This document shows, piece after piece, positions 311-11,478 of a stretch of 30,675 nt of DNA (positions are counted from its first letter, which is position 1; every line of letters starts with the position of its first letter). The notes beneath the pieces were generated by a model. It worked only from the letters and a program-made list of their open reading frames with translations, was not told the origin of the DNA and did no database searches. The position numbers and the translations under genes are program-made. The stretch comes from a virus, in IMG/VR virus record IMGVR_UViG_3300035118_000065, positions 1 through 30,675 of that record; one strand, given 5' to 3'.

Positions 311-886
311 CTAGGAAGCCTCAGCTTTGTGATGATTCTTGAGGTAGGCGATAGCAGTGCGTAGGATGATGGGATTATCGCGAAACATGCCAAGTCCTAT
401 ATTGCAATCATTGCAGAGTAGTCCGCGAGTTGTATTTGTCGTATGGTCATGATCCACGAAAAGCAGAGGCATGTGACGCGGCGCTCGTCCTCTCAGGTCA
501 TTATCGGCAACCATTGCGCGGCCCTCACTGCCGCAGATCGCGCAGACGCCTTCTTGAGCAGCATACAGCGCATCGTATTGCTCCTGTGTGACGCCATAGG
601 TTCGCAGCACATGTTGCGTGCGCGCTATCTTCTTTTTGCAGGATCGGCATTCATCCGTCAAACCATCAACGCGCCTCGTGTCTTTATGGAAGTCGTCGAG
701 TGGTTTGGTCTCGCCACAGACGCGGCATTGTTTCGTGCCAGTGGTCTCGCGCTCACGACGTACGCAGTCCACGCACATGATCGGGGCAAACCCATGCGCT
801 CCGTCTCGACTGAACTCGCGATACGGCTTCTCCACGCCACATCGCGGACATTCAATCAGCACACCCTTCCATTGTCCTTGTGCCAT
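311..886 (-). CDS. recombination endonuclease VII-like protein
   Basis: A 191-residue protein of the T4 endonuclease VII type, a family that resolves branched DNA before packaging. The C-terminal half shows the family core: a CxxC pair (C115, C118), the VDHDHTT segment (residues 144-150), a second CxxC pair (C158, C161), then GLGMFRDNP. The Cys pairs would bind zinc, and the D/H segment would form the metal site. The N-terminus adds further CxxC pairs (C13/C16, C38/C41, C54/C57, C80/C83), suggesting two small zinc modules not present in T4 gp49. An AAGGGG Shine-Dalgarno lies 7 bases before the ATG. It is transcribed away from the terminase genes. Phages often place such HNH/endo VII nucleases next to terminase, consistent with a role in preparing DNA for packaging (inference). 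The family call is firm; the exact substrate is not. Confidence 0.88.
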   Translation of the reverse strand: MAQGQWKGVLIECPRCGVEKPYREFSRDGAHGFAPIMCVDCVRRERETTGTKQCRVCGETKPLDDFHKDTRRVDGLTDECRSCKKKIARTQHVLRTYGVTQEQYDALYAAQEGVCAICGSEGRAMVADNDLRGRAPRHMPLLFVDHDHTTNTTRGLLCNDCNIGLGMFRDNPIILRTAIAYLKNHHKAEAS

Positions 887-1296: not shown

Positions 1297-1746
1297 ATGC
1301 CACGCCAGAAGAGTAGCAAGAAGTCCGATAAAGCCTCCTCACACGGGAATCCGGTTCCCCTTGATATGCAAGCCGCACCGCGCGCCGCTCAGGCGCTGCG
1401 ACTGCGGCGTCTTGGCTTTACCTACGCGCAGATCGCCGAGCAATGCGGCTACAAAGATGAGAGCGGCGCGCGCAAGGTCATCAAGAACGCGACCAAACGC
1501 ATCGTGAACGAGGAGGCGCGCGAGCTGGTGAGCTGGCAACTCGACGCACTCGATGAAGCGCTCCAGGTCGTGCGCTCACGTATCCGCAAGAACGACGAGC
1601 ATAGCCTCTGGGCGGTTGACAGGCTCGCGCCACTGTTGAAGCGGCAAGCGGAACTGATGGGACTCGACGTGAAGAACGATGGCGCAGGCGCGGGCTTGGC
1701 GCTCGTCAGCGTGCCGATAGCCGCCGATGTGCTGGAGGCGATATGA
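1297..1746 (+). CDS. terS: putative terminase small subunit (HTH)
   Basis: A 149-residue protein, basic at the N-terminus. A helix-turn-helix at about residues 38-65 includes LGFTYAQIAEQCGY and then VIKNATKR. Helical segments rich in charged residues follow (about 70-125), as expected for oligomerisation. Small terminase subunits bind the packaging initiation site through an HTH and form a ring that hands DNA to the large subunit. Size, HTH and position directly upstream of the large subunit support the call. There is no strong Shine-Dalgarno; translation probably couples to the upstream stop at 1294. Its stop overlaps the methyltransferase start (ATGA at 1743-1746). A generic phage HTH regulator is the alternative. 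Confidence 0.72.
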   Translation: MPRQKSSKKSDKASSHGNPVPLDMQAAPRAAQALRLRRLGFTYAQIAEQCGYKDESGARKVIKNATKRIVNEEARELVSWQLDALDEALQVVRSRIRKNDEHSLWAVDRLAPLLKRQAELMGLDVKNDGAGAGLALVSVPIAADVLEAI

Positions 1747-2327
1747 CGGACAAATATAGCGTCATCCTCGCCGATCCCCCATGGAACCACTACAACGCCA
1801 ACAACTACTGGAAGGCAGGCGACACGCGGCGCAAGCCGCGCTGGGCGCATTACGAGACCTTGAGTTATCGCGATATTTGCAAGCTCCCAATCGGTGACTT
1901 GGCTGCCACTAATGCCGCGCTCTTCATGTGGACGTGTACGCCGATCCTGCCAAAGACGTTGAGTGTGCTTGATGCTTGGGGCTTTCGCTATGCTACGGTC
2001 GGATTCACATGGGTGAAGCTTAACCGAGACGGCACGCCCTTTGCCGGACTTGGAGCGTACACGCACCAGAACATTGAGTTGTGCGTCATCGGTATTCGTG
2101 GGAAGATGAAGCCGCGAGACCTTCACGTGCGACAGGTGATGATGGCACCGCGCCGTGAACACAGTCGCAAACCTGACCAGCAGTATGGCCGCATCATGCG
2201 CCTCTTCGACGGCCCCTATCTCGAACTCTTTGCCCGCCAGCAGTGGCCTGGTTGGGACGTATGGGGCAACCAGACCAACCTCTTCCCCGCGCAACCATTC
2301 CTCTTCGATGAAGGGATGGCCGCATGA
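1743..2327 (+). CDS. MT-A70 family adenine N6-methyltransferase
   Basis: A 194-residue protein with the MT-A70 signature. The catalytic DPPW is at residues 11-14, straight after the strand VILA, and a later segment with NIELCVIGIRGK matches the conserved C-terminal half. Members transfer a methyl group from S-adenosylmethionine to the N6 of adenine in DNA or RNA. The HSRKP-containing segment and the FARQQWPGWDVWGN end are also typical of the family, so the gene looks intact. It sits between the two terminase genes, with ATGA overlaps on both sides (1743-1746 and 2324-2327). It should therefore be made with the packaging proteins. It may methylate phage DNA before packaging, against host restriction or to mark pac/cos (inference). 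No cognate restriction enzyme is nearby, so it behaves as an orphan methylase. Confidence 0.9.
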   Translation: MTDKYSVILADPPWNHYNANNYWKAGDTRRKPRWAHYETLSYRDICKLPIGDLAATNAALFMWTCTPILPKTLSVLDAWGFRYATVGFTWVKLNRDGTPFAGLGAYTHQNIELCVIGIRGKMKPRDLHVRQVMMAPRREHSRKPDQQYGRIMRLFDGPYLELFARQQWPGWDVWGNQTNLFPAQPFLFDEGMAA

Positions 2328-4765
2328 GCACCGCCATCGCTACATCTGCACCATCACCACAGCCACCACGGCTCGCCTATGATCCACGCGGCGGCGCACG
2401 TTCGCTGCTGTTCTGCCACGATAGAGAGTGCTTGGTTGAAGGGCCTGCGAACTGTGTTGCTGGTGAGACGCGGTTCTATGACCCGTCAACTGGTGAGCAC
2501 ACACCGATCGCGGAGTTGGTACGGCGGCAGCATGCACCGATCGTACAGACGCTTTGGGGACCGGTGCAGGCAGGTGTGCCATTTCGCAAAGGTGTTGCGC
2601 CACTCTATCGCGTGACATTGGCCTCTGGCCGTTCCTTCCTTGGAACGGCGGGGCATAAGGTGCTTACGACTGAGGGCTGGCGGCGCGTTGACGCTTGTGT
2701 CGCTGGATTACAGCTGCTCGTATCCGCTCCCTGCCCTCCGCCGATATCCGCTTCGGCTTCCCTGTCAACGTCTCAGCGAGATGATGCCCATTCGAGCCAA
2801 ACACCTCCAGATTGTCGAGGTGATTATTCGCCTTATCCCCATCAATGTGATGGACAACCTCAGACGGCAGCAGCAGACGCCCCAGTTTCTGCTCCATCAC
2901 CAGACGATGCTCGCGCACATAACCATGGCGATCGCAGTGTGGATGGTCTGTCTGGAGTCGGAGGATATATCCGTCCTTATCCGTCATTCGCCCACCTCGC
3001 CAGTTGGATGCATTCTGGCCGACCTGCTGAAATGGTGTACGTTCCAGATCGTAATCACGCAGGAACTTGGCGACGTGCCGACGATTCGCGCCCAAACGGC
3101 GCGCCATCTCCGAGACTGAGATTCCCTCTTTCGCCCATTGGCGCAGATCGTCCTGGCGGCGATAGCACACGCCCACCGTTGAACGTGACAATTTCAATCC
3201 GGCATTCTTCACTACGCGATGCACTCGATCGAGCGTTAGGCCCAACTCATCAGCCGTCATCCGGGTACTCTTCGTCCGCTGATACGATGCGAGAATCGCT
3301 TGCCGCTGCTCTGGCGTCAGATGCGTATAACGTTTCACGGCTCACCTCACTTTCTACTTATAAATACGATTCTAGGGCACAGTGGGACACGGTATTAGCC
3401 ATAGAGTACCAGCGGACCGATGAGTATTTTGACCTGCATGTGCCTGGCGCGGAGCACTATCTAGCTGAGGGCATTTATCATCACAACACCGGCAAATCGT
3501 TTGCTGGCCTGTGGAAGATGCACCTGGCCGCGCTCAAATACCCCGGCATGCACGGCCTGCTCTTGCGCAAGACGCTGGTGTCGCTGAAAGCCTCCACGCT
3601 GCGCACCTATAGCGAGCGCATCCTGGGGCTGAATAGCCCGGTGAAGTATCGCCCGTCGGTCGGTGATGAACCCGCGCACTACGTCTACCCCAACGGCAGC
3701 AAGCTCTACGTCGGCGGCATGAATGAGCCCGACAAGATCATGAGCACCGAGTATGACCTGGCAATGTGGGATGAGGCAAGCGACGGCGCAGTGGATGACT
3801 GGGAGAAGATCCAGACTCGCCTTGGACGCTGGGGCAAGATGCCCTATACGCAGGCAATCGCCTGCGTGAATCCGCAGAATCCGATGCACTGGCTGAATCA
3901 ACGCGCTAACCCCGACAGTGAGACTTTTGATCCGGCGCAGTACCGCATGCATCGGATCAAGAGCCGACACGAAGACAACCCCAGCGTGACCGCAGAGTAT
4001 CTGCATATGCTCTCACAACTCACCGGGGTACGTCGTGCACGGCTCTACCTGGGGATATGGGCTGCCGCCGAAGGCGCCGTGTACGAAGACGCCTGGAATG
4101 CGTCGCTCAACCTCCAGGACAGAAGCGTGATCTGCCAGCGTCCACGAGATTTGTATGGGGATTGCGGCATTGATCACACGTGGCCACGGTATCTCGCCAT
4201 TGACTTCGGCTATACGGAGCGACACCCGTTTGTGTGTCGCTGGTATGCCGAGGACGGCGAGGGCGCCTTGTGGATGTACCGCGAAATCTATATGACCAAC
4301 CGGTTGGTCGAAGATCACGCGGCCGATATCCGCAAGTATTCGCGGTGGGGCACCAGTCCACACGGTGATCCCCTGCCGCGCGCCGTGATCTGTGACCACG
4401 ACGCCGAGGGCCGCGCAACCCTTGAGCGTCACCTGGGGCTGCGGACGACCGCCGCCGACAAGCGCGTCTTGGAGGGCATCCAGGTGGTGTCCTCACGGAT
4501 GCGCCCGGCTGGTGACGGTCGTCCTCGGCTCTACTACCTCCGCGACGCCCTGGTGGAGCGTGACCGCGTGCTGGTGGACGCCAAACGCCCCACCTGTGGC
4601 GCGGAGGAGGTCGAGTCCTACATCTGGAAGATCGGCGGCGCCATTCACCGCGCTCACGATGAGGTCGAGAAGGACAACGATCACGCGATGGACTGCGACC
4701 GCTACCTCTGCATGTACCGCGATATGCGTGCCCAGGCCGCCAAGATGGGCGCGAGACTCTTCTAG
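2324..4765 (+). CDS. terL: terminase large subunit precursor with intein
   Basis: An 813-residue precursor of the DNA-packaging motor ATPase/nuclease. Removing the intein (C44 to N388) leaves 468 residues, normal for a large terminase. The rejoined sequence reads EGPAN-TGKS, a Walker A loop split exactly between Asn and Thr. Walker B is LAMWDEA (D483, E484). The RNase H-like nuclease shows acidic residues at D627 (IDFGYT), D691/D693 (ICDHDAEG) and D786/D790 (DHAMDCDRY), the usual order. The ATPase pumps DNA into the prohead and the nuclease cuts genome units. The start is the ATG overlapping the methyltransferase stop (ATGA). The portal gene follows 10 bases after the stop. Without splicing the P-loop is broken, so the intein must be active for packaging. 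Function is near certain. Confidence 0.95.
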   Translation: MSTAIATSAPSPQPPRLAYDPRGGARSLLFCHDRECLVEGPANCVAGETRFYDPSTGEHTPIAELVRRQHAPIVQTLWGPVQAGVPFRKGVAPLYRVTLASGRSFLGTAGHKVLTTEGWRRVDACVAGLQLLVSAPCPPPISASASLSTSQRDDAHSSQTPPDCRGDYSPYPHQCDGQPQTAAADAPVSAPSPDDARAHNHGDRSVDGLSGVGGYIRPYPSFAHLASWMHSGRPAEMVYVPDRNHAGTWRRADDSRPNGAPSPRLRFPLSPIGADRPGGDSTRPPLNVTISIRHSSLRDALDRALGPTHQPSSGYSSSADTMRESLAAALASDAYNVSRLTSLSTYKYDSRAQWDTVLAIEYQRTDEYFDLHVPGAEHYLAEGIYHHNTGKSFAGLWKMHLAALKYPGMHGLLLRKTLVSLKASTLRTYSERILGLNSPVKYRPSVGDEPAHYVYPNGSKLYVGGMNEPDKIMSTEYDLAMWDEASDGAVDDWEKIQTRLGRWGKMPYTQAIACVNPQNPMHWLNQRANPDSETFDPAQYRMHRIKSRHEDNPSVTAEYLHMLSQLTGVRRARLYLGIWAAAEGAVYEDAWNASLNLQDRSVICQRPRDLYGDCGIDHTWPRYLAIDFGYTERHPFVCRWYAEDGEGALWMYREIYMTNRLVEDHAADIRKYSRWGTSPHGDPLPRAVICDHDAEGRATLERHLGLRTTAADKRVLEGIQVVSSRMRPAGDGRPRLYYLRDALVERDRVLVDAKRPTCGAEEVESYIWKIGGAIHRAHDEVEKDNDHAMDCDRYLCMYRDMRAQAAKMGARLF
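2453..3487 (+). other. intein inserted in terminase Walker A motif
   Basis: In-frame protein-splicing element of 345 residues. Block A begins with Cys (CVAGETRFYD) directly after EGPAN. Block B is GTAGHKVLTTEGW, with the TxxH pattern. Block F/G is YFDLHVPGAEHYLAEGIYHHN, ending in His-Asn, and the +1 extein residue is Thr of TGKS. All residues needed for splicing are visible. The N-terminal splicing half spans about residues 44-137 and the C-terminal half about 345-388. The middle contains no LAGLIDADG or sense-strand HNH endonuclease. It is a Ser/Pro/Asp/Arg-rich stretch that is the antisense of the HNH gene at 2664-3338. This is effectively a mini-intein whose linker has been replaced by an opposite-strand gene. 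Confidence 0.95.
2664..3338 (-). CDS. HNH homing endonuclease, antisense inside the intein
   Basis: A 224-residue protein entirely within the intein but on the opposite strand. Two helix-turn-helix-like segments (about 8-50 and 65-97) precede an HNH_3-type nuclease. That domain has GYILRL at 123-128, HGYVREHRLVMEQKLGR at 138-154, VVHHIDGDK at 161-169, then NNHLDNLEVF to residue 180. H163/H164, N172 and H173 with N176 fit the metal and catalytic positions. Such enzymes nick or cut an empty allele and spread their carrier by repair. The start is GTG at 3338, with GAGGTGA a few bases upstream on this strand. The TAA stop (2664-2666) overlaps codons of intein block B. It should cut terminase genes lacking the intein (inference). 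The protein family is clear; expression is unproven. Confidence 0.9.
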   Translation of the reverse strand: MKRYTHLTPEQRQAILASYQRTKSTRMTADELGLTLDRVHRVVKNAGLKLSRSTVGVCYRRQDDLRQWAKEGISVSEMARRLGANRRHVAKFLRDYDLERTPFQQVGQNASNWRGGRMTDKDGYILRLQTDHPHCDRHGYVREHRLVMEQKLGRLLLPSEVVHHIDGDKANNHLDNLEVFGSNGHHLAETLTGKPKRISAEGRERIRAAVIQRHKRQRAASPQS

Positions 4766-6474: not shown

Positions 6475-9400
6475 ATGGCCGCACCAGCACCGACTGCCGC
6501 GTATAAGGATGCGCTGCTTGCGCTACAGGCGCAGCAGCGCGCCCGGCTGTCGGTGCTCGTCCAGCAGACCGAAGCGATGCTGCATAGCGACTGGCAGCGC
6601 GGCATGGGCGCGGCGGCCTCTCTCTACCGACCTGTCCTCGATGAGTACGCCAAGGCGCTCGCCGCGCTACGGATCGCCAACGATGACCCCGCCGCGCGGC
6701 TTTCGCTGGACTGGCTTACCAGCCAGAATAGCGCGCTCAAAAGCATCGAGCAGAGCGTGCGTGCCAGCGCGCTCACCTACGGCAACGAGTCCGTCAAGAC
6801 GGTCGAGGATGCACAGCTCAAAGCGATGAATGCGGGGTTACAGGATGCCGAGAACCTGACACAAGAGGCGCTCTTCCCTGCCTCACAGCTTGGTGTCAAT
6901 CCGGCCATGCTGTTCAACCGGCCCAACCCCGACGCCATCAGTCAGTTCGTCGGCAGAGCGGGCAACGGCCACCCGCTCGGCGATCTGTTCGCCAACTTCT
7001 CGCAGGAGGCGACCTCCGCGGCGCGACAGGCGATGCTGATGGGGCTGGCGACCGGCGCCAATCCGGTGAGTATGGCGCAGGGCATCTCGCAGGCGCTGGG
7101 CATCTCGCGCTCACGTGCCATCACCATCGCGCGCACGGAGGTGCTGGGCAGTTACCGCCAGGCGGCGCATGAAACCTACCGCGCCAACAGCGATGTATTG
7201 CAAGGGTGGATCTGGAGCGCTGGTGGTGCAAATCCATGTGCGATGTGCGCGGGCATGGATGGCACGTTGCACGATCTCAGCGAAGACTTGTCAGACCACC
7301 CGTGTGGCAAGTGCGCACCAATTCCTCAAACAAAATCGTGGGACGAGATCCTCGGCCCCTATGGCATCGACGCCAGCGGACTTGACGAGACCGACATCGG
7401 GCGTAGTTACACGTCGATAAGCGAGAAGTTCGATAGCTACTCCCCCGCCCGCCAGCGCGAGATCATTGGCACCCAGACCGGCTACGAGGCGTATAAGCGC
7501 GGCGAGCTGACCCTCAAGGATTTCATTGGCGTGCGCCCCGCCTCTGACGGCTTCCCCAGCAGCTACTACCAGAAGTCGCTGAAAGAGTTGCAGATTCCGA
7601 CGCGGCAGGCGACACGGTTGGTGCAGCCCTCGCCTGAGATCATGGAGAAGCTGCGGATGGGCACGCTGCGGTACACCGACCTCGGCAAGATCACGCCCGA
7701 TGAACTCATGCCCGCGTGGGCCAAACGCAATGATGCCTCGCGCATCGTCTACCAAATCCTGCGTAACGGTTTGCCCTACGACATGACCTCACACGAACGC
7801 GGGCTGCTCATCACCAACCTCGCCGAGATGCTGAAGACTGATTTGCCCATCAGCGAGCGCGCGGCGGTCGAGCGGCAGTTGCAGGCGTTGGGCGGCCAGG
7901 TGGAACGGCTGACGCTGAAGAGCACGAAGCTCGCCGAAGTGGATCAGGCAGCCATCCGTGAGACCGACGCCGCCATCAAGGCGGCGACCGGGCGCACTGG
8001 CGTACCCGATGTGTCACCAACCGCAGAATATATGAAACTCGTGCATGCCAATCAAAAGTCAGACGTTGCTTGGTTCGCCGACATGCATGGCATGAGCGTC
8101 AAAGAATACGAAGACGCGGTGGCGGCAAAGATCCAGGCGGCTGTAGATGCCGATGTCGTTTCAATACGTTATCCTCAATCGTCCCTTGAGAAGATTCTTG
8201 ATGATGGCTACTTCAAGACGGTTCACGCCTCGGGCCGTACTGAGGTGGGTTATATTGCGCAAGACCCCAGCCTTGAGCGCGTCCAGATGTACATTGGGAT
8301 GCGGGCGAAATACGAGGAAGAGGCCTTTGGGTATCCGCTTGATCTCGCGCCAGAACTTCGGCCTGTGTCCGGCTATATTGCACCACTGACAGAGGATGAT
8401 GCTGCTGCGCGGGGCTTCGGTGACGCACGTATTATCCTCAAAGACGATGTACGCGCGCGCTCGACAATGACAGTGAGCGATAGCCTACAGAATGACCATG
8501 TATTACCGCGTCCCATGAATGATGTTCACTATGATGTCGTGCCATTCGCGGCAGGGGAAGAGCGCGGATTCCCACGTGATATGTGGGCAAGCATGATAGA
8601 TCCATTGAGCAAAGGCGACCTCAGTGATACCCCCTTGGCATATATGGAGGCTCAGATACACGGCGGACTAAAGTCCTCCGACATCGCCGAGGTCATCTTC
8701 AATGACGGGCACATACCATCCGAGGCGCTACAGGCGAAGCTCGCTGACGCCGGTATTCCGTGGCGCATGGAGTCTGATGCCAAAGCAGTCGCAAACTCCA
8801 CTGCTGACGCCGTAGCCACTAAGACTGCGACTGCCACATCACGCGCAGCGACCCTCTCAGGCGCGCGGGCCGAGGTGCGGGAGGCTATTCCTGCAATGAC
8901 TGCCGAGCAACTCCTCAGCGAGTCAGCCCGCATGCAAGAACTGATACAGGGCGCGGAATCCGAGCGCGCGCCTGTTGAGCGGCTTGTAGAGCGCTTGGGA
9001 GACAACCCCGCTATCACTACGTTGGCGCATGAACTCGGCTTTACTGCGGTAGAAGATGGCCTATCGCCAGAGATGCAGGCGATAGAGCACCTACAACATC
9101 TCTGGAATAGTGTTGCAGACATTGGTGGTGAACCTGAATTGCAAGCGCTGCGTATGGCCATCAATGAGGAGTTTGGATTCAACGCGACCATCACCGGCGT
9201 CAGAAGTGATGTCATGGATGAGGCCAAGGCGCTCTATGAGAATGCTGGCGAAGGGTTGCGCGCATTGGCGCGCGCAACCTACGACGAGACGCAGCGATGG
9301 TTCAAGGATGAGGGGATTGACGGACTGACCATCTTCCGTGGGAGCGATAGTGCCGCAGCGCGCGCAGGCATAGCATATAACGGCGCCGTCAACGACACAA

Positions 9401-11478
9401 CACTGCCTGCGCGCGGCGTAAGTTCCTGGGCCGTTAGCCCTGAACCGGCCTATATGTCTGCGGCCCATAATAACGGCGCGTATTCCCTGCTAGCGATGGA
9501 CCGCATACCAGTCAGCGAGGTCTGGTCAACGGCCTATTCAGGCTTTGGCGTCGCTGATGAGTCCGAAGTCATTGTGATGGGCGATGCTCGGCAGGTGTCT
9601 GCGTTGACCTGGGTCAGCAAGGGCGCGGACGCGCAGGAGATTAGTTATCGGGAAGCCGTGCAGCGCTTGGCGGATTCCACCCTCACTAATACATCCAAAG
9701 CCGCCGATACGCTCTCAGGCGCACGAGCCGAAGTGCGGGATGCCCAGCGGGCGCTCCGTGCTGCCCAGGACGCCGTACGCGCCGACTACTCGCGCAACCC
9801 GCAGGGGCTGCTCTCTAGCGCGCTACAGAACGACGGGCGCGTGGTAAGCGCGCAGGCGCGGCTGGAGGCGGCGCACACCCGCATGCAGGATCTCCATGCC
9901 GCCACACGTGACACGCTCCATGCCCGCGAGCCACTGCAAGGCGAGGCGGCGCGACTCCAGACACAACGCGACGCCCTGGCCGCGCAGAGGGACGTGGCGC
10001 AAGCCAAACTTGACGCGCTCTCAACGCGCTGGGAGTCGCTGGTATGGCAGCAAACTGAGTTTGATCCGATAGATGACACTGAGGAGTACAACGCGCTGGA
10101 GGCGAAGATCCTCAAGGTGGAGAGCCAGCAAGGCGCGCAGATCGCCAAACTGTCGAAACTTGACCAGCAGGTTGCCGACATCGAGCGTCAGATGGCGCCA
10201 CCAACCACAGCACCGGGGATGCTGGCCAACCTCAAGCCCGAAGTACCCTATGGCGCGAAGCTGGAGCCGATTGCGGGTGGCATAAATACCTATAACCCCA
10301 TGCTCGGCGGCATCGGCGGCAAGGCGCGCGTGGAGGCGCTCACAGAGGCGTATGGAGAGAACCAGCTCGCCGCAGCACTGGATAACCTAACGATGCAGAA
10401 CGTGCGCCAGGCTGCGCGTGAATATGGGCTCTCGGCGGCAGGCAGCAAAGAGGATATCATCTCGCGCATCGTCTCGCACGTTACGGAGGGCCGCTACACC
10501 GGCTCGGCAGGACGTATTACACGCGAAGCTGAGAAGATCACTCCGCGCAGTAGCACACCACGCATCAAGCCATTGAACGCGACTGGCAAGATGACGTATG
10601 CCGAGTACAAAGCCGTGTACGAGAAGGCGTTGGCCGACTTTGCATATAACGTCGAGCACGGCGGGCAGACGTACGGCTCACGACTCGTGCAGCTCCGCGC
10701 CGAGCATCCGCAATTCAACGCGCGGTATCGCAAAGAACTGAAAGCACTAGGACAGACCGACACACTGGCGGCGCAGGAAGGCATGAGCGCGGCGCAGCGC
10801 GCCGCGCTGGATGATGCGCTCAACGCACGGATCGACCGTATCCCCGTTGATGCCAGCGTTGCCGATATCCAGGACTTCATCAAGACGCAACTGCCAAACA
10901 TCTCGGTGGTCGAGTTGATGTCGCTTGACCAGACCTCCGCGCGGCTTGTTGCCAATGCGGCGACCAATCTGATGCAGCAGTTGCCCAAGGTTGCTGACAA
11001 CATCTGGCGCATCGAAGCCGACACCCATTATGCCGCCGAATCGCTCGCCCTGGTTCCGCGCGATGGTCTCTCACTGGTGCTCAATACCGATCGCTGGGCT
11101 AACATAGCTGATATTGCCATGCGCGCGCCGCAGTATGCCTCAGACGGTTGGTGGGTGGCACAGACACCCGAGGAGATCATCGGCCACGAGATTGGGCATC
11201 TGTTCCAGCTCAACTATCACATCACGAATAATACCTGGGAAGGTATCATGGATCGCGTCGCTGCGACGGGTGCCAACCCACTGGTGAGCACCTATGCAGG
11301 CAACAAGATCGAGGAGAGCTTCGCCGAGACGTTTGCTCTGCTCGTCTATGGCGAGCCGACCGACGAGCAGTTGCCGATTCTGCGGGCGCTGGCCCAGCTC
11401 CTCAAAGACAATGACATCGACTACAATGACTTGCGCGTGGCAGTTGGCTCTGATTCACTTGACCTCGGCGCGTCGTAG
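6475..11478 (+). CDS. giant Mu F-like head protein with ART and metallopeptidase domains
   Basis: A 1667-residue protein. Residues about 150-290 match the Mu gpF-like minor head family: a helical segment, ARTEVLGSYRQA, then two CxxC pairs (C255/C258, C277/C280). Such proteins bind the portal inside the head and can be ejected with DNA. The rest is an extension. About 540-760 may be ART-like (R565, RPVSGY at 629-634, EAQIHGG from E725). About 900-1055 is a better ART match: FRG (R955), SSW (983-985) and ESE (E1029/E1031). A coiled coil spans about 1080-1250 and a SAP-like segment about 1305-1340. The end carries HEIGH (H1571, E1572, H1575) and ESFAE (E1614, E1618), typical of zinc metallopeptidases. 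It probably delivers enzymes into the host like T4 Alt (inference). Head-protein call firm, effector roles likely. Confidence 0.85.
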   Translation: MAAPAPTAAYKDALLALQAQQRARLSVLVQQTEAMLHSDWQRGMGAAASLYRPVLDEYAKALAALRIANDDPAARLSLDWLTSQNSALKSIEQSVRASALTYGNESVKTVEDAQLKAMNAGLQDAENLTQEALFPASQLGVNPAMLFNRPNPDAISQFVGRAGNGHPLGDLFANFSQEATSAARQAMLMGLATGANPVSMAQGISQALGISRSRAITIARTEVLGSYRQAAHETYRANSDVLQGWIWSAGGANPCAMCAGMDGTLHDLSEDLSDHPCGKCAPIPQTKSWDEILGPYGIDASGLDETDIGRSYTSISEKFDSYSPARQREIIGTQTGYEAYKRGELTLKDFIGVRPASDGFPSSYYQKSLKELQIPTRQATRLVQPSPEIMEKLRMGTLRYTDLGKITPDELMPAWAKRNDASRIVYQILRNGLPYDMTSHERGLLITNLAEMLKTDLPISERAAVERQLQALGGQVERLTLKSTKLAEVDQAAIRETDAAIKAATGRTGVPDVSPTAEYMKLVHANQKSDVAWFADMHGMSVKEYEDAVAAKIQAAVDADVVSIRYPQSSLEKILDDGYFKTVHASGRTEVGYIAQDPSLERVQMYIGMRAKYEEEAFGYPLDLAPELRPVSGYIAPLTEDDAAARGFGDARIILKDDVRARSTMTVSDSLQNDHVLPRPMNDVHYDVVPFAAGEERGFPRDMWASMIDPLSKGDLSDTPLAYMEAQIHGGLKSSDIAEVIFNDGHIPSEALQAKLADAGIPWRMESDAKAVANSTADAVATKTATATSRAATLSGARAEVREAIPAMTAEQLLSESARMQELIQGAESERAPVERLVERLGDNPAITTLAHELGFTAVEDGLSPEMQAIEHLQHLWNSVADIGGEPELQALRMAINEEFGFNATITGVRSDVMDEAKALYENAGEGLRALARATYDETQRWFKDEGIDGLTIFRGSDSAAARAGIAYNGAVNDTTLPARGVSSWAVSPEPAYMSAAHNNGAYSLLAMDRIPVSEVWSTAYSGFGVADESEVIVMGDARQVSALTWVSKGADAQEISYREAVQRLADSTLTNTSKAADTLSGARAEVRDAQRALRAAQDAVRADYSRNPQGLLSSALQNDGRVVSAQARLEAAHTRMQDLHAATRDTLHAREPLQGEAARLQTQRDALAAQRDVAQAKLDALSTRWESLVWQQTEFDPIDDTEEYNALEAKILKVESQQGAQIAKLSKLDQQVADIERQMAPPTTAPGMLANLKPEVPYGAKLEPIAGGINTYNPMLGGIGGKARVEALTEAYGENQLAAALDNLTMQNVRQAAREYGLSAAGSKEDIISRIVSHVTEGRYTGSAGRITREAEKITPRSSTPRIKPLNATGKMTYAEYKAVYEKALADFAYNVEHGGQTYGSRLVQLRAEHPQFNARYRKELKALGQTDTLAAQEGMSAAQRAALDDALNARIDRIPVDASVADIQDFIKTQLPNISVVELMSLDQTSARLVANAATNLMQQLPKVADNIWRIEADTHYAAESLALVPRDGLSLVLNTDRWANIADIAMRAPQYASDGWWVAQTPEEIIGHEIGHLFQLNYHITNNTWEGIMDRVAATGANPLVSTYAGNKIEESFAETFALLVYGEPTDEQLPILRALAQLLKDNDIDYNDLRVAVGSDSLDLGAS
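8851..9744 (+). repeat. 36-bp direct repeats flanking the ART segment
   Basis: The 36-base segments at 8851-8886 and 9709-9744 match at 30 positions and encode TLSGARAEVREA and TLSGARAEVRDA. They bracket residues 805-1078, which hold the better ADP-ribosyltransferase match. Such repeats could arise when a linker is duplicated as a domain cassette is gained or exchanged. Confidence 0.8.

Follow-up and report, generated by a model that had tools for sequence, protein, structure and literature searches.

An HNH endonuclease gene antisense to a phage terminase intein and its relatives: a likely two-strand homing element

Inteins that carry a nuclease are normally produced as one fused protein together with it. 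In the window, i.e., the whole 30,675-base virus record IMGVR_UViG_3300035118_000065 analysed here, an intein in the gene for the terminase large subunit lies opposite an HNH gene on the other strand, which raises the question of whether the two strands encode complementary parts of a single mobile element. The original prediction had read the arrangement as a free-standing HNH gene that invaded a mini-intein in antisense orientation, giving a two-gene homing element. The features of the locus are as follows (positions are those of the window).

2324 to 4765, plus strand: terminase large subunit ORF with in-frame intein, 813 aa (phrog_2, 1.4e-30; Terminase_3, 2.5e-8)
2324 to 2452 and 3488 to 4765, plus strand: N-extein and C-extein, parts of the same ORF
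2453 to 3487, plus strand: intein, 345 aa, running from Cys1 to Asn345 and splitting the Walker A motif into GPAN and TGKS, with the +1 Thr at 3488
2453 to 2725, plus strand: N-terminal half of the Hint domain, residues 1 to 91 (pLDDT 95 to 98; matches DnaB/RecA mini-inteins)
2654 to 2656, plus strand: block B His68, within the N-terminal Hint half
2726 to 3379, plus strand: open sense frame across the nuclease gene and its edges, predicted to encode an unstructured linker (pLDDT mostly 38 to 62; no family match)
3380 to 3487, plus strand: C-terminal half of the Hint domain, residues 310 to 345, ending HHN (pLDDT 92 to 98; intein_Cterm match)
2664 to 3338, minus strand: predicted HNH endonuclease gene, 224 aa, GTG start (HNH_3 and phrog_10730 matches; model pLDDT 90)
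2778 to 2912, minus strand: HNH catalytic region, residues 143 to 187 (EHRLV...EVVHHIDG...NN..DNL...SN.HHL; best VIA match I-HmuI)
3042 to 3170, minus strand: second HTH segment, residues 57 to 99 (HTH_29, HTH_23; helices in the model)
3189 to 3332, minus strand: first HTH segment, residues 3 to 50 (HTH_38, Sigma70_r4)
3342 to 3348, minus strand: ribosome-binding site GAGGTGA of the HNH gene, 3 nt upstream of the GTG
2664 to 2725, both strands: dual-coding stretch, Hint block B on the plus strand and the C-terminal HNH tail on the minus strand (from the coordinates of both features)

Profile searches of both strands, which had been proposed as a check, placed Hint-type splicing profiles on the plus strand and HNH_3 on the minus strand. 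Within the single open plus-strand ORF, the matches to intein_Nterm, intein_Cterm, and Intein_splicing are confined to the two intein ends (approximately residues 44 to 128 and 369 to 389), and those to terminase large subunits begin past residue 387; as had been anticipated for the middle of the intein, no sense-strand endonuclease or other recognisable domain was found between the ends by profile search of this ORF. The limits of the intein were fixed by the uninterrupted GPANTGKS in the intein-free allele L009, whose terminase is 77% identical. The insertion is in frame at a conserved motif (Walker A), intein-free alleles are present in L009 and in E. coli, and the two-half Hint fold is accompanied by the conserved residues C1, H68 of block B, and the terminal His-Asn (H344 and N345), followed by a +1 residue of the Cys/Ser/Thr type; splicing is predicted from these residues and the fold. 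The intein departs from canonical endonuclease-containing inteins, in which the nuclease is fused in frame, since its sense middle is unstructured in the model and matches no endonuclease. Directly upstream, an MT-A70 adenine methylase gene (1743 to 2327, plus strand, 5.8e-26) overlaps the start of the terminase gene by 4 bases at its 3′ end. Elsewhere in the window, a very long ORF of 1667 aa (6475 to 11478, plus strand) matches head morphogenesis proteins in its N-terminal part and only a family of unknown function in the rest, and a member of the recombination endonuclease VII family (311 to 886, minus strand; PF02945, 1.8e-20), encoded opposite to the late genes, is possibly a free-standing homing endonuclease.

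The complete 224-residue minus-strand ORF with its GTG start and GAGGTGA ribosome-binding site was confirmed, as was its assignment to an HNH_3-type enzyme with two HTH-like segments. Specifically, Pfam matches were obtained for HNH_3 (2.6e-9, residues 144 to 180), HTH_38 (7.6e-7, residues 3 to 33), and HTH_29 (6.6e-6, residues 70 to 100), and the PHROG match was to the HNH family phrog_10730 (1.5e-30); failure of a profile search to recover the HNH motif would have counted against the original prediction. H164, N176, and H186 of the catalytic region are invariant in 41 relatives. The gene lies wholly inside the intein, its 3′ end overlapping Hint block B. By virtue of an HNH catalytic motif combined with DNA-binding domains, and of its place in a mobile element that sits at the presumed target and has spread independently of the host gene (see below), it conforms in these respects to the HNH homing endonucleases. 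Its product is presumably active as such, and we infer that it derives from a free-standing gene. Ribosome-binding sites are enriched before the HNH starts of the family (37 of 70, compared with 18 ± 3.8 expected). A scan for promoters and terminators around the HNH gene of the window revealed two promoter-like sites versus 0.9 ± 1.1 expected, and no convincing promoter.

AlphaFold2 was used to model both products. The HNH protein, predicted with 41 aligned sequences, reached a pLDDT of 90 and comprises the HTH parts and an HNH core. The best structural match of the core obtained with VIA was I-HmuI (PDB 1u3e; Z 6.8, 78 residues, rmsd 3.7), a modest similarity that is not decisive alone; Foldseek alone gave no significant match for the HNH model, and a PDB sequence search with the HNH profile returned HTH-type matches only. 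The sense intein, predicted with 34 aligned sequences, features a confident Hint fold formed by residues 1 to 91 and 310 to 346 (pLDDT 92 to 98), and these ends resemble the DnaB and RecA mini-inteins. Residues 100 to 305, the complement of the HNH gene, mostly have pLDDT values of about 45, and the model thus suggests that sense translation across the nuclease gene probably yields an unstructured linker, placed in the loop where inteins usually have insertions.

Related terminase inteins were searched for the same antisense gene by two routes. Among annotated phages, HNH relatives pointed to Pectobacterium phage Ymer and Pseudoalteromonas phage PHS3, whose terminase ORFs are likewise open, have intein ends at the same P-loop, and contain the HNH gene in antisense orientation; a profile built from the three HNH proteins was then searched against IMG/VR and genomes. 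In this HNH-first survey, 89 of 163 HNH-matching ORFs were antisense inside an ORF with intein halves, corresponding to 84 loci, which form 69 clusters when the HNH proteins are grouped at 90% identity. A Hint-first survey started from the splicing domain alone and required neither an HNH gene nor an open opposite ORF; it used two narrow Hint-N alignments, a 22-sequence Hint-N alignment being too diverse. Here, antisense HNH genes were present in 109 of 123 loci, and a broken sense frame was encountered near the contig end of one contig only (L117/L262). The pooled set of 138 distinct inteins contains 125 with a full antisense HNH gene, 7 with a partial one, 5 with none, and 1 with an in-frame HNH. 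The antisense gene that the original prediction had suggested looking for is therefore carried, in full or in part, by 132 of the 138, mostly at terminase P-loops. In these 132, the insertion site is before (S/T)GK(S/T) in 110, in a variant P-loop in 10, after GK in 5, and elsewhere or unresolved in 7. Terminase_3 or Terminase_6N was matched by most of the host proteins checked; a DEAD/ResIII helicase is the host in one case, and some hosts have no family match. Family members include cultured Pectobacterium phages, phage PHS3, and an E. coli prophage; a search of plasmids with the intein gave no match. Antisense-HNH inteins are thus a widespread family and not a one-off.

Three relatives differ in context. 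The element of L139 (1358 to 4294, minus strand) occupies the P-loop of the DEAD/ResIII helicase instead of a terminase. L111 (278 to 4042, minus strand) is a 1255-aa terminase-like ORF that has the element and, further on, a weak LAGLIDADG match, perhaps a second intein. L203 (2002 to 6222, plus strand), a bacterial ORF, has an intein that is related to this family but canonical, with its HNH in frame.

Selection was analysed by codon phase and dN/dS within groups of relatives. For Hint-N and Hint-C, it is the sense frame that is conserved (dN/dS 0 to 0.4). Along the HNH stretch, the antisense frame gave values of 0.07 to 0.25, while the sense frame is apparently free there (1.25 to 2.2, sense dN/dS in overlapping frames being indicative only). 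In the HNH frame of the window, position 3 changes about twice as often as position 2 in comparison with the nearest relatives. Constraint therefore switches strand along the element, from the sense strand at the ends to the antisense strand in the middle. In the overlap of HNH tail and Hint-N, the PHS3 and Pectobacterium groups show slow change at each of the three codon positions; in several relatives, the same DNA truly encodes both the nuclease tail and the splicing domain. An antisense frame that is broken by stops or under no purifying selection had been named as the outcome that would speak against the original prediction; instead, the HNH gene is partial in 7 of the 132 inteins and its frame is constrained as described.

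Several observations bear on mobility. HNH similarity follows Hint similarity with a rank correlation of 0.70, part of which could stem from the sequence overlap of the two, compared with 0.26 and 0.28 against terminase similarity. Moreover, 333 pairs share HNH proteins at ≥42% (at least 42%) without detectable terminase similarity; the HNH gene and the splicing domain move together between unrelated terminases. Among the complete E. coli genomes, this HNH gene occurs in 1 of 5,426 (MEI003), whereas a close terminase occurs in 774, mostly 93 to 94% identical to that of MEI003, and direct reading of two alleles, one from a genome and one from a phage, showed both to be empty precisely between GFG and SGKT. 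The MEI003 prophage terminase (L244, 1631 to 4036, minus strand) also has a 29-aa tandem duplication that is absent from the empty alleles. L239 has one in-frame stop (3241 to 3243) in its HNH gene, apparently a decaying nuclease gene, and an open sense intein frame; L297, L338, L354, and L367 have lost HNH coding by deletion and likewise retain an open sense frame. Naturally shortened inteins of about 177 to 232 aa, which lack all or part of the HNH gene but keep an intact sense frame, are found in L297, L338, L352/L353, L354, L364, and L367. Decay of the nuclease gene in an open sense frame, together with the empty sites, fits a homing cycle.

Such stops and deletions in several members could also mean that the element is a homing relic that has kept splicing, with most of its nucleases, that of the window among them, no longer active. 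The HNH frame is, however, under purifying selection in most groups, and the catalytic residues are intact in the window and in all 41 aligned relatives, which makes a relic unlikely. We also considered that the antisense HNH protein is a phage packaging nuclease working with the terminase, a role suggested for HK97 gp74-like HNH proteins, and lies in the intein by chance. The location of the element in terminase genes favours this reading, as does the finding that HNH proteins encoded near terminases aid packaging (PMC11855218). On the other hand, close relatives lack the HNH gene or have lost it with the terminase frame intact, which argues against a terminase that needs the HNH protein; in addition, the phylogenetic signal of the HNH protein tracks the splicing domain and not the terminase, and one copy resides in a helicase. 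Taken together, a packaging function has a rather small probability.

The frames themselves provide a further line of evidence. In each of the 69 clusters, the HNH gene occupies one and the same antisense frame, suggesting a single origin. In a stop test, HNH codons were resampled synonymously and sense-frame stops counted. For the window, a mean of 4.4 stops was expected, and zero stops occurred in 0.3% of the trials; for the 69 clusters, about 7 stops per HNH gene were expected and none was seen, a statistic that is conditioned, because an open opposite ORF was a selection criterion of the HNH-first survey. The corresponding sense frame is open in none of 64 free-standing HNH relatives. A chance antisense ORF was ruled out by the codon-phase and stop tests. 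Sense read-through would not be required at all if the locus were an intron or a fractured gene containing a split intein, and split-intein phage genes with an endonuclease gene between the halves are reportedly known from Dassa et al. in 2009. In the window, host gene and intein do not form two ORFs but one that is open throughout, and among the relatives both Hint halves share a single open ORF except in cases at contig edges; as the openness of the sense frame is also far from chance, and C1, the block B His, the terminal His-Asn, and the +1 Ser/Thr/Cys are conserved, a fractured gene or an intron is very improbable. A non-functional shadow of sense coding, kept open by base composition or codon bias, might be suspected from the long antisense ORFs common in this GC-rich window, but with the HNH and HTH profile matches, the invariant catalytic residues, the confident fold, and an antisense frame that is constrained where the sense frame is not, it is already refuted at the level of selection and has practically no chance of being correct.

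An old two-strand homing element, i.e., a mobile intein with its splicing and nuclease functions on opposite strands, is thus very likely. The plus strand would be translated as one terminase-intein precursor; after joint folding of the two Hint halves, the intein would be removed along with its unstructured middle and the P-loop of the terminase re-formed. The minus strand would act as a separate homing endonuclease gene with its own start, the product of which may act, by nicking or cutting, on P-loop codons that lack the intein in a co-infecting phage or a resident prophage, and repair of this cut would copy the whole element. The two-gene reading of the original prediction, with intein and HNH on opposite strands, is supported by the conservation in relatives, the strand-switched selection, the co-transfer, and the empty sites. 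Its suggestion of an antisense invasion of a mini-intein holds as far as the two-strand element is concerned but not as a local event: since the lineage is old and widespread and has one fixed antisense frame, the HNH gene probably settled in a mini-intein once, long ago, and the element would then have spread as a unit between unrelated terminases, with HNH decay or deletion leaving the sense frame open and giving rise to shorter inteins. There is about an even chance that the opposite-strand encoding itself is kept by selection in an old, distinct class of mobile inteins, the nuclease being made alone (for example, before late terminase expression) and both strands being under simultaneous protein-level selection where the HNH tail overlaps Hint block B; early, independent expression as the reason for the antisense placement is a conjecture.

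Two activities sharing one piece of DNA on opposite strands in more than 100 phage and prophage loci look like a common, overlooked design of homing elements. They also provide a rare, well-replicated case of natural overlapping genes on opposite strands and a clean test of the mutual constraint between two reading frames. In practical terms, essential phage genes are misannotated where such inteins occur: the E. coli MEI003 terminase is a RefSeq pseudogene with a missing N terminus, yet its 801-aa frame is open, the record of PHS3 contains a truncated terminase, and the terminases of the Pectobacterium phages are annotated as "hypothetical."

Among known systems, the fractured phage genes reportedly described by Dassa et al. 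resemble the present element in having a separate endonuclease gene in a phage intein, but there the intein and the host gene are split in two. I-HmuI shares the structure of the HNH core, as judged by VIA, but is intron-encoded on the sense strand and has other DNA-binding parts. The terminase P-loop inteins of mycobacteriophages, likewise inserted in the Walker A motif, are splicing-competent, endonuclease-active, and mobile according to the sections of the report considered here, which describe no opposite-strand endonuclease (PMC5050341). In the dCTP deaminase of cyanophage CL131, an intein whose excision was shown also combines splicing with an HNH_3 nuclease in a phage gene, but the nuclease is fused in the sense frame (PMC6293099). 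A literature search of partial coverage (a 2025 preprint on non-canonical intein architecture, for example, lies outside it) found no intein with an antisense endonuclease. The ShiLan domain, a hidden HNH in phage methylase genes, comes close in that its HNH, distantly similar in sequence to that of the intein family, is encoded in an alternative frame of an insertion through which the host frame remains open, with a patchy distribution suggesting homing (PMC11855218). However, the ShiLan HNH is on the same strand and no splicing domain was found, so that the insertion stays in the host protein; in the window, the insertion has a Hint domain, and a same-strand hidden HNH was ruled out, as the HNH strand is the opposite one. 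In nuclear group I introns, homing endonuclease genes also run opposite to the spliced element, and one of them, I-DsqI of intron L2066, is expressed and cuts the empty site (PMC9548176); in contrast to the intein, the carrier is a self-splicing RNA in eukaryotic rDNA with no protein frame to be kept open, and the nuclease is of the His-Cys type. The same-strand HNH of ShiLan and the antisense endonucleases in group I introns are thus the closest precedents for the intein described here.
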